Assembly: GCF_024137025.1 (NCBI RefSeq)
Contig: NZ_JAMYJR010000040.1
Coordinates: 124,001 to 188,000, forward strand
Reading direction: 5' to 3'
Origin: Paractinoplanes aksuensis
Lineage (GTDB): Bacteria > Actinomycetota > Actinomycetes > Mycobacteriales > Micromonosporaceae
DNA length: 64,000 nt
The notes under the pieces were generated by a model. That model did not search any database. It had not been told where the DNA came from and worked only from the letters and a program-made list of their open reading frames with translations. The translations under genes were made by a program, and so were the position numbers. Below, piece by piece: positions 38,304 to 41,342 of the stretch (the stretch's first letter is position 1; each line of letters opens with the position of its first letter).

Positions 38304-38376
<73 letters not shown>

Positions 38377-39170: not shown

Positions 39171-40118
39171 ATGGGGCTGCCACCGCTCGCGCTGGGGCTG
39201 GTGCTCTCGTCGGCGCTGCTGCACGCACTGTGGAATGTGCTGCTGGCCGGGGCGCCCAAGGGGTTCGAAGTCACCATCGCCGCGAACACGTTCGGGTTCA
39301 TCGCGTGGACGCCGCTCGCCCTGACCCGGTGGCGGGTCGACGACGCGGCCTGGGGCTACCTGGCCGTCTCGGCCTGCTTCTCGGTTACATACTTCCTGTT
39401 GCTCAACGTGGCCTACGCCCGCGCGCCCGTGCACGCCGCCTATCCGGTCGCGCGCGGGCTGGCCCCCGTACTGGTGCTGCTCCTGACCTTGCCCAGCACC
39501 GGGCTGCCCGCGTGGTCGGGCCTGGGCGTCCTGGTCATCAGCGGCGGGATCCTGCTCACCGCGTCCGGCGCGAACCGGCGGTCGGTGCTCGCGGCGGCTC
39601 CGGTGGCGGTCTCGCTGACCTGTTACACGTATGTCGCTTCGCTCGGCCTGCGGCATGCCGACCCGGCCCCGTACTTCTGGTTGACCATGGCGCCGCTGGT
39701 CGTCGTGACCGCCCTGGCCCGTCCGCGGGCCGTCCGGGACAACCTCCGGCCGGTGACCTTGGTGATCGGCTTGGGCTCGTTCGCCGCCCATGGGCTCGCC
39801 CTGGCCGCGATCGCCCTGGTCGCCGCGGCCGAGGTGCCGGCGATCGCCGCCCTGCGCGAGACCGGCATCCTGTTCGTCATCGCGATGGCCGCGCTCTCGG
39901 ACCACAAACCGACGGCCAGAACCGCGGTCGGAGCCGCTTTGATCTTCGCCGGCGTCGCAGTGCTGGCCCTAGGGTGTATCTGGCGGATCACGTGGGAGCG
40001 AGGCGAGGTCCAGGTCGTGGCTGGCGTCGGCCGCAGGGCGGTCCAATACCGGTGTTGTATTGGGCCGTTCTGCGGCCGCCGTCAGGCGCGGGCTGGGCCA
40101 CGCCGCAGCCCCGCGTGA
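39171..40118 (+). CDS. EamA-family (DMT) transporter, C-terminus supplied by a MITE
   Basis: 315 residues. Ten predicted helices in two EamA halves occupy about residues 1-268 (LALGLVLSSALLHALWNVLL to VGAALIFAGVAVLALGCIW), with APVHAAYPVARGLAPVLVLL as a typical EamA helix. The last 47 residues (from about 40 bases before 40010) are non-hydrophobic and encoded by an inserted palindromic element. The stop TGA at 40116-40118 lies within that element. ATG 39171 starts just before helix 1 and is 32 bp from the divergent phosphotransferase start. It exports or imports small metabolites of unknown identity. Confidence 0.82.
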   Translation: MGLPPLALGLVLSSALLHALWNVLLAGAPKGFEVTIAANTFGFIAWTPLALTRWRVDDAAWGYLAVSACFSVTYFLLLNVAYARAPVHAAYPVARGLAPVLVLLLTLPSTGLPAWSGLGVLVISGGILLTASGANRRSVLAAAPVAVSLTCYTYVASLGLRHADPAPYFWLTMAPLVVVTALARPRAVRDNLRPVTLVIGLGSFAAHGLALAAIALVAAAEVPAIAALRETGILFVIAMAALSDHKPTARTAVGAALIFAGVAVLALGCIWRITWERGEVQVVAGVGRRAVQYRCCIGPFCGRRQARAGPRRSPA

Positions 40119-40137
40119 TCCGCCAGATACACCCTAG
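39969..40137. mobile_element. Palindromic MITE with CTAG target duplication
   Basis: A 161-bp element (39973-40133) is flanked by CTAG on both sides (39969-39972 and 40134-40137). The ends are perfect 20-bp inverted repeats (GGTGTATCTGGCGGATCACG and its complement). The inside is also palindromic, with GGCCGCAG...CCAATAC facing GTATTGG...CTGCGGCC around CGGTGTT, so the whole element can fold into one long hairpin. There is no coding capacity. A CTAG (YTAR) duplication is typical of IS5-group transposases; assignment to that group is inference. Confidence 0.85.
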
Positions 40138-41342
40138 GATGCGTGGACGCCGGCCACCGCGATCAGGCCGTCGACAAAGGTGCGGCGCCAGTTCACGTAG
40201 TCGTGCCCGCCGCTGTACTCGGCGTACGAGACGGAATAGCCCCGCTGCCGCAGCGCGTCCCGCATGGACCGGTTGACGTCGATCTGGTTCGGGCCCCCGC
40301 CCGGCGCGGCCATGGTCTCGAGGATGCCGACGTCCAGATAGAACCGGATGTCGGCCGGCGGGCGCTGCGCCACCTCACGCATCAGCCCGCCCGGGTTCTC
40401 CGACGGCCACCAGAAGCTGCCCGACTGCGAGATCACCCCGCCGAACAGCTCGGGCGAGCGCAGTGCGATGCCGGCCGCGGCCAGACCACCCCGGGACACG
40501 CCGGCGATCACGTTGGCCCGGCCGTCGGCGCCGGCCCCGAGTTCGGTGCGGGCCCAGGGCAGCAGCTCGTCCGTGATGAAGCGTGAGTGCTCGGAGCCCG
40601 GGGTCAGCTCCTCGTCGCGGGTGGCCGAGTAATTACTGACGAACAGGGCGACCACCGGCGCGATCTCGCCCGCCGCGATCAGGTTGTCGAGGATCGTGGG
40701 GGTGTGCTGCACGACCCGCGCGATCCAGCCGTCAAAGACGACCAGCACCGGCAGGCCCTCGGTCGGGATGCCGGCGGGCCGGTAGACGGCGACCGGCGGG
40801 GACAGCGGGGCGTCGACGATCGTGCCCGCGGCCACGCCGGGGCGCGGCTCGAGCCAGGGCTCGCCCGGCGCGTCGGGCAGGGACAGCACCGACAGCCAGG
40901 CGTCGGGATCGTCCGGGTCACCGGGCTCGCCCGGGAAGAACTGCCGGTGCGGGTTGAACGGGTCTACGTGGGACTCGCCCGAGCCGTGCGTGTGGGTCGG
41001 CAGGGCCTTCGAGCCGTCGTGCGTGATGCAGTAGATGGTGAGCAGGTCGGACGGCTGCACCCGGGTCGCGTACCAGAGGTCGGTGCCGGGCATCCGCTCG
41101 AGCGGGAAGTCGAGCCCCCACCACACCCGCGTGCTGCCCGCCTGCCCCCGCCACAGGAACGTGACCAGGCGCGATCCGTCGCGCCAGGGCTCGATCAGCG
41201 GCGTGCCGTCGATGGTCACCCGCTGCCAGAACTCGTCGAGCGAGGCGGGGTCGTCGAGCAACGCGGCGATCTGCGGACTCTGCACGGCGGCACTCCCGAA
41301 GCAGGCGGAGGGTGAGCGATCCGCCACCGAGAGTTTCAACAC
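40134..41342 (-). CDS. Enterochelin esterase-like (Fes-type) serine esterase
   Basis: 402 residues. An N-terminal Fes-like beta domain (VTFLWRGQAGSTRVWWGLDF, GTDLWYATRVQPSDLLTIY) is followed by an alpha/beta hydrolase of the esterase D type with G-x-S-x-G (VIAGVSRGGLAAAG), SQSGSFWWPSE and the catalytic His in YSGGHDYVNWRRTF. This layout matches enzymes that hydrolyse trilactone siderophores after iron uptake; no siderophore genes are adjacent, so other ester substrates are possible. The ATG 41342 start leaves about 25 residues before the first conserved strand. The stop codon TAG lies within the CTAG duplicated by the neighbouring MITE. Confidence 0.85.
   Translation of the reverse strand: MLKLSVADRSPSACFGSAAVQSPQIAALLDDPASLDEFWQRVTIDGTPLIEPWRDGSRLVTFLWRGQAGSTRVWWGLDFPLERMPGTDLWYATRVQPSDLLTIYCITHDGSKALPTHTHGSGESHVDPFNPHRQFFPGEPGDPDDPDAWLSVLSLPDAPGEPWLEPRPGVAAGTIVDAPLSPPVAVYRPAGIPTEGLPVLVVFDGWIARVVQHTPTILDNLIAAGEIAPVVALFVSNYSATRDEELTPGSEHSRFITDELLPWARTELGAGADGRANVIAGVSRGGLAAAGIALRSPELFGGVISQSGSFWWPSENPGGLMREVAQRPPADIRFYLDVGILETMAAPGGGPNQIDVNRSMRDALRQRGYSVSYAEYSGGHDYVNWRRTFVDGLIAVAGVHAS

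Follow-up and report, generated by a model that had tools for sequence, protein, structure and literature searches.

MITEs are commonly regarded as passive remnants of transposons. According to the passages on these repeats in PMC2229807 and PMC10969869, ERIC and the Correia elements (NEMIS) are MITEs of short, palindromic sequence; their RNA folds and has an influence on adjacent messages, and for ERIC the orientation is crucial for the effect. Folding of MITE RNA and orientation-dependent effects are thus already known for ERIC and Correia, as far as these two sources extend (PMC2229807, PMC10969869). Further systems described in the respective passages are RUP of pneumococcus, a MITE that was linked to a transposon by the similarity of their ends and has TA in its target (PMC2229807), the CIR elements of Caulobacter and Brucella, which are repeats with phylogenetically conserved RNA folds (PMC2229807), and the IS5 copies of Escherichia coli, with CTAA or CTAG as flanking sites (PMC11677980). 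In the present study, we analyzed a palindromic element located within a stretch of 64,000 nucleotides of Paractinoplanes aksuensis DNA, in the following called the window. This element shares with ERIC and Correia the properties of a palindromic folding MITE, but the hosts differ, and stop codons shared by two genes are not mentioned as sites in the ERIC and Correia passages of PMC2229807 and PMC10969869. Most repeats of this kind are A+T-rich according to a passage in one of the reviews (PMC2229807 or PMC10969869), whereas the P. aksuensis MITE has a G+C content of 71%, equal to that of its host genome. The CIR fold differs in being two-armed, and CIR is only partly MITE-like in the description given by PMC2229807. 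The literature searched, which was limited in coverage, contained no account of the P. aksuensis MITE family, of a split between DNA-like ends and a one-strand interior, or of landing on shared stop codons. From the analyses described below, we consider it probable that the element is a non-autonomous IS5-type MITE belonging to a Micromonosporaceae family that is frequent at stop codons and whose interior is selected as a single-strand fold.

The element in the window starts with GGG, ends with CCC and is flanked on either side by a TA, each of which is part of a CTAG. The initial annotation had described a palindrome of 161 bp with perfect terminal inverted repeats of 20 bp. The palindrome was recovered (arms of 82 nt each that are 80% complementary, loop of 7 nt), but its size is 163 bp, and the repeats are perfect over a longer stretch, which including the CTAG reads CCTAGGGTGTATCTGGCGGATCACG. 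Recomputation of the net insert, given before as the element plus one CTAG, again yielded 165 bp, which is a multiple of three. With terminal inverted repeats, a small size and no transposase, the element has properties by which MITEs are recognized. The RNA of the + strand was predicted to fold with -155.8 kcal/mol (z-score -16.3), and none of 200 shuffled sequences folded equally well. The - strand gave -123.9 kcal/mol, so the fold is very stable on both strands. The covariance model R1 described below assigned 177.7 bits to the + strand and 112.6 bits to the - strand. A pattern search for terminators with a U-tract gave no match within the element and a sole match upstream of it at 39924-39937, and a scan restricted to the sigma-70 pattern found no promoter-like site in it. 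In Rfam, no family reached its gathering score; the strongest match was that of another P. aksuensis copy, L308, to MIR918, a generic long hairpin (67 bits versus 268 required). The coordinates of all features are listed in Table 1.

Table 1. Position of the MITE, its parts and the two adjoining genes in the window.
Feature	Position	Strand	Basis
Palindromic element, GGG...CCC, 163 bp	39972..40134	+ (best-folding RNA strand = orientation A)	Sequence, fold, R1
Left TA of the target duplication, part of CTAG 39969-39972	39970..39971		TA rule from the L308 empty site
Right TA of the target duplication, part of CTAG 40134-40137	40135..40136		Sequence
Left terminal inverted repeat GGGTGTATCTGGCGGATCACG, similar to IS5-type transposon ends	39972..39992	+	Sequence, end comparison
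Right terminal inverted repeat, perfectly matching the left one	40114..40134	-	Sequence
Conserved core, 5' side, TGGGAGCGAGGCGAGGTCCAG	39993..40013	+	Alignment A1, columns 24-44
Conserved core, 3' side, CTGGGCCACGCCGCAGCCCCG	40093..40113	+	Alignment A1, columns 124-144
Inner stem and conserved apical loop, strongest one-strand G-U bias	40014..40092	+	Alignment, arm comparison
EamA/DUF6-like membrane protein ORF, last 48 codons from the element	39171..40118	+	ORF, TIGR03340 match
Enterochelin-esterase-like gene (PF00756), TAG stop on the element end	40134..41342	-	ORF, domain match

The element is located between two convergent genes. As had been stated before, the EamA-like ORF stops at a TGA within the element, and the esterase stop lies in the right-hand CTAG, where the TAG (40136-40134, - strand) consists of the right TA and the last base of the element. 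The EamA-like ORF matched NCBIfam TIGR03340 with an E-value of 1.4e-18, but with 67.5 bits compared to a cut-off of 288; it showed no Pfam match up to an E-value of 10 and no match to a PDB sequence. The proposal that the element caused the end of the EamA-like gene was not supported in this form by related genomes. In all five relatives with a detectable neighbour (L122, L123, L127, L128, and L129), this gene ends 1-4 codons past residue 267, and in all four gene-called relatives the two are separated by a third gene, which has the same direction as the esterase gene. The L122 version of this third gene overlaps with the esterase stop and encodes an MDMPI_N domain (E-value 4.6e-15). At the window locus of P. 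aksuensis the third gene is absent, and because the relatives possess it together with an earlier end of the EamA-like gene, the window locus must have lost DNA, too. At the window copy, DNA was therefore both inserted and deleted. Judged from the sequences, insertion and deletion of the neighbour gene probably went together, in one order or the other; recombination between two copies once flanking the lost gene would be a simple, putative route. We regard the last 48 codons of the EamA-like ORF as a probable by-product. The relatives read at the esterase gene carry TGA where P. aksuensis has TAG, i.e., no pre-existing TAG was seen there, and the same was observed for the relatives read at copy L004. 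All gene calls in this study derive from our own codon-usage caller trained on the window, and no annotation was used.

The occurrence of further copies had been suggested as a check of the mobile nature of the element, and such copies were readily found. BLAST of the P. aksuensis genome (10.0 Mb, 99 contigs) revealed five further close full copies with 87-98% identity and several half copies at contig ends, and a manual tally of the R1 match list gave at least 20 full-length places plus seven shorter or weaker ones. This copy number is a lower bound, because six draft contigs begin or end inside or just beyond a copy (L007-L012). By DNA search, the family was present in 46 of 60 genomes of the genus, P. 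aksuensis included. R1 matches with E ≤ 1e-8 occurred in at least 91 of 200 Micromonosporaceae genomes and in at least 19 of 44 genera including the own genus, these counts being minimal ones since the R1 searches score only part of the first-look candidates. An exact-core scan of genome contigs yielded 50 stretches, of which 49 belonged to Actinoplanes or Paractinoplanes and one, lacking matching arms, to a Bryobacteraceae MAG. The divergent copies have a common core and quite different yet still complementary ends.

The 107 core matches included 83 with matching arms, which represent 78 distinct elements; ten of these had less than 300 nt of flanking sequence, leaving 68 loci for analysis. 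Including the TAs, a length of exactly 167 nt was found for 41 of 45 non-redundant elements, whose stems nevertheless differ widely, and the matches fetched from other genera have 165-168 nt. These 41 elements align without gaps (alignment A1) and were used to build R1; the gap-freeness is partly a matter of choice, as L027, L069, L094, and L095 were omitted for their deviating length. L039 and L066 had been excluded before A1. In the genomes G011, G034, G027, and G040, the top-ranking copies of the L015 subfamily are 94-96% identical to L015, compared to 83-92% for the adjoining gene. The identity above that of the neighbour gene speaks for a probable recent movement, though weaker copies exist as well. 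A protein-coding interior was also considered and is not favoured, as the codon periodicity was only weak (mean entropies 0.50, 0.57, and 0.58 over columns 25-143). This makes a coding role unlikely, yet some room for it is left by open frames: frame 0 is open in 37 of the 41 A1 rows on the A strand and in 34 of 41 on the opposite strand.

Several copies showed deviating architectures. In L005 of P. aksuensis (C46:18097-18263), the inner part and the loop are reversed relative to the arms and the core, as if the interior had been inverted by recombination between the arms. L211, L213, L217, L225, L226, and L227 are short derivatives with matching arms and without the middle, the smallest being approximately a pair of bare ends. 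L214, L215, L216, and L224 are half elements joined directly to other DNA, which is compatible with deletions adjoining the element.

The flanks of the 68 copies agree in TA, with T preceding the element in 50 and A following it in 41 cases; the T is preceded by C in 46 of the 68. Bases outside of the TA differ between the two flanks of a copy (T-TA/TA-A for L015, C-TA/TA-C for L056), and the clean empty site described in the following contains a single TA. The 4-bp CTAG duplication proposed initially can thus be dismissed: the target duplication is TA, 2 bp, at YTAR sites. The empty site was found for copy L308 of P. aksuensis, where the flanks are joined at one TA, always within YTAG, in 7 of the 15 relatives displayed out of 19 fetched (G011, G034, G033, G049, G027, G003, and G035). 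The search for an empty allele in relatives was therefore successful for L308 and failed for the window copy, for which no relative showed a clean empty site, the third gene being present instead. The L308 copy is missing from the closest species examined.

According to the gene caller, the TA of the empty L308 site lies within the stop codons of both convergent genes in all seven relatives. The two genes have the same length in P. aksuensis and in five of these relatives (1218 and 1083 nt); the left gene differs in G034 and the right one in G033. In P. aksuensis, each gene ends with the duplicated TA and the first base of the element, and because this combination restores each stop, both stops stay in place. 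At the L015 site, G034 has CTAA, which can be read as a common stop site, and G011 has TGA, both with length differences alongside.

A position of this kind was frequent. The stop codon of a neighbouring gene overlaps the end of the element by exactly 2 nt in 32 of the 68 Actinoplanes copies (on both sides in seven), and in 19 of 31 copies from other genera (on both sides in ten), 31 of the 35 elements from other genera being used for the neighbour analysis. Formation of a stop codon with the end of the element, as noticed earlier for the esterase gene in the window, is therefore seen in nearly half of the Actinoplanes copies. In 37 of the 68 copies, one or both TAs are not intact; copies with one intact TA were kept for the enrichment analysis, which comprised 52 copies. 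Stop and intergenic positions had a ratio of 26 to 18 among the copies and of 20 to 94 among the other YTAR sites of the same loci, corresponding to an approximately 7-fold enrichment (p = 1e-6). Compared to CTAG sites alone (11 to 33), the enrichment was about 4-fold (p = 0.002). Eight of the 52 rejoined sites were called within a gene. The enrichment was repeated in other genera, where 25 of the 31 copies were used (16 to 7 versus 3 to 20, p = 2e-4) and two of the 25 sites were called within a gene. For IS5-type transposons, a neighbour stop at position -2 was observed in none of nine cases, but just six adjoining gene 3' ends were called.

Convergent genes flank 19 of the 68 Actinoplanes copies and 19 of the 31 copies from other genera, and 48 of the 68 Actinoplanes copies are located upstream of a gene or between genes in tandem. 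With respect to tandem genes, the orientation of the A strand was 17 versus 27 overall (p = 0.17) and 11 versus 23 in Actinoplanes alone (p = 0.058). For copies located before genes, such as L016, L018, L070, L107, and L118, the called start codon was often 10-13 nt away, a distance that would place the site at the border of the ribosome-binding site.

Transposons with a DUF4096 domain (PF13340) were matched in 64 of 67 genomes of the genus (E ≤ 1e-5), and the draft assembly of P. aksuensis contained no match to PF13340 or PF13358, i.e., no mobiliser was found there. Thirty DUF4096 loci were fetched. L251, which has about 950 bp, ends with AGGTTCTGTCCCGCGGATCA and L249 with AGAGCGCATCTGACGGATCAT, and the ends of six loci of about 1035 bp resemble AAGGCGTGTTTCGTAAG or AGGCCGTGTTTCGTA; five of the 30 have ends of the AGTGAGTGTTT type, unlike those of the MITE. 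The best matches of MITE arms to transposon ends were obtained for L251 (18/20), L249 (17/21), and L247 (17/20), compared to an average of about 8.7 and maxima of 13-14 for shuffled ends. One of seven transposon ends tested, that of L243 (16/21), did not exceed its best shuffle (17). Some copies in P. aksuensis have TAAGGCGTGTTTCATAACTGG ends, which closely resemble those of the 1035-bp type. The DUF4096 transposons of the IS5 family thus resemble the MITE in their end sequences and in their TA sites, which are often CTAG. Unlike them, the MITE lacks a transposase, and similarity to their interior does not extend beyond 12-16 nt in the 30 loci (E-value 0.71), which led us to reject a derivation of the interior from an IS5 transposon.

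A derivative of IS630/Tc1-mariner, the type to which the mobiliser of RUP is assigned in the passage on RUP (PMC2229807), was rejected as well, as among 30 PF13358 loci those with recognisable ends differ from the MITE (CTAGTGC-, CTACAGAGG- and similar). In 20 regions read in P. aksuensis or G011, no autonomous copy with the same ends was detected, and the TAGGGYCYGTYYYR sites in these regions represent full, short or truncated copies or chance-like sites. The IS5-group transposase with matching ends that had been anticipated was consequently found in related species; in the P. aksuensis assembly PF13340 had no match. By sequence comparison, the ends of the MITE are common to autonomous IS5-type (DUF4096) transposons of related species, and an IS5-type transposase is a candidate for its mobilisation.

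For an analysis of base pairing, the two arms of each element were aligned with strand-symmetric scoring. In a first set comprising 67 of the 78 elements (length 155-180), the inner stem contained 373 G-U cells on the A strand versus 29 on the B strand, and here and in the following such counts overstate independence, since wobble cells share ancestry. The core had a ratio of 113 to 28, and the outer part showed no lean (28 on A versus 40 on B). The inner-stem G-U pairs of this set were scattered over most positions. The second set comprised 40 elements, 35 from other genera and five from another P. aksuensis subfamily, which were oriented by the core motif without the model; the loop motif was concordant in all 40. 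The inner part again leaned to the A strand (241 versus 18), and it did so in each of the 40 elements. In this set the outer ends leaned likewise (32 versus 2), with 18 of the 32 cells at positions 21-23 beside the core and seven at position 15, and with 4 versus 1 at positions 1-14. Because the outer part of the second set leans, too, no clear-cut boundary separates DNA-like from RNA-like evolution.

Despite widely differing sequences, 96% of the cells in the outer arms (1456 of 1518) are Watson-Crick pairs; for the outer ends, the proportion is about 94%, with little lean. In the inner stem, G-U occurred in some row at 23 of 31 pairs and A-C at two of 31; for pairs that are mostly Watson-Crick, 138 G-U cells were counted versus three A-C cells. 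Changes on both sides were found in 49 of 69 pairs, 98.2% of the cells pair, and the covariation score was 0.522, compared to 0.194 for shuffled and 0.068-0.089 for slid versions. The family thus shows covariation with one-strand tolerance of G-U, as is looked for in structured RNAs. The A-strand RNA was predicted to be more stable in 76 of the 78 distinct elements (mean 24 kcal/mol). One exception, L039, results from an orientation error of the core pattern, since R1 scores higher on its other strand. In L066 the other strand folds better, and this is the sole exception of the 78 without an orientation error as explanation. Taken together, the outer ends seem to evolve as DNA and the interior as a folded single strand.

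The comparisons show that the MITE inserts at YTAR with duplication of TA and that its length is nearly fixed at about 163 bp plus TA. Upon insertion into the TA of overlapping convergent stops, as seen for L308, the TA and the first base of the element rebuild each stop codon, and such sites may be retained because insertion there would harm neither gene. Watson-Crick pairing persists in the outer ends, as would suit sites bound by a transposase, and in the inner stem pairing is maintained on one strand, where G-U is frequent and A-C nearly absent. This suggests that the interior is selected in the form of a folded single strand, most simply an A-strand RNA. As the orientation to neighbouring genes has no clear bias, the folded RNA may be tied to the spread of the element itself; selection within host messages is less likely, because both orientations relative to adjoining genes occur. 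The hairpin may, in addition, keep convergent transcripts apart. In its full form, our proposal is a mobile structured RNA: the terminal repeats would serve as DNA for an IS5-type transposase, the one-strand interior would act as a hairpin RNA needed for spread, e.g., by recruiting the transposase or a host protein, and the element would settle on shared stops. We consider this full form plausible, although somewhat short of probable. It would combine two modes of evolution in one element, ends as DNA and interior as a one-strand fold, with matches in 19 genera. With R1, a covariance model is at hand for what may be an RNA family of antibiotic-producing bacteria, and the idea of a transposon that spreads through gene-dense genomes with stop codons as landing sites is testable.

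A different role would be that of a bidirectional terminator or insulator adopted at convergent gene ends, with host selection maintaining the hairpin and its position. The copies between convergent genes (19/31 in other genera, 19/68 in Actinoplanes), the very stable fold on both strands and the enrichment at stop codons are in agreement with such a function, which nevertheless appears rather unlikely to us: the element lacks a U-tract according to the pattern scan, 48 of 68 Actinoplanes copies are located before genes or between tandem genes, the L308 copy is missing from the closest species examined, and termination from two sides gives no reason for G-U pairs on one strand only. Another view is that of an ordinary MITE whose arms are kept alike by arm-to-arm copying and whose wobble bias is a meaningless legacy of the founder. 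Copying between arms could account for outer arms that are 96% Watson-Crick paired although their sequences diverge widely, and the reversed interior of L005 fits it, too. A founder effect, however, would fix certain positions, whereas the observed G-U pairs cover most positions; they occur at 23 of 31 inner pairs compared to two for A-C (138 versus 3 cells in mostly Watson-Crick pairs), and the lean recurs in 35 elements from other genera. We therefore regard this view as improbable.

Even smaller is the chance that we assign to a strand-specific mutation bias, in which C to T changes on the A strand would convert G-C to G-U pairs without any selection. Copies occur in both orientations to their neighbours, so neither replication nor read-through should provide a constant strand, and pairs such as 69-99 contain A-U, G-U, and G-C together. 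The outer ends of the same copies in the first set show no lean (28 versus 40), an objection that is weakened by the leaning ends of the second set.

Elsewhere in the window, a stretch composed of 57 G and then 15 C (38305-38376) fuses a phosphotransferase-like ORF to a convergent deaminase-like ORF; this stretch looks like an assembly or sequencing artefact.
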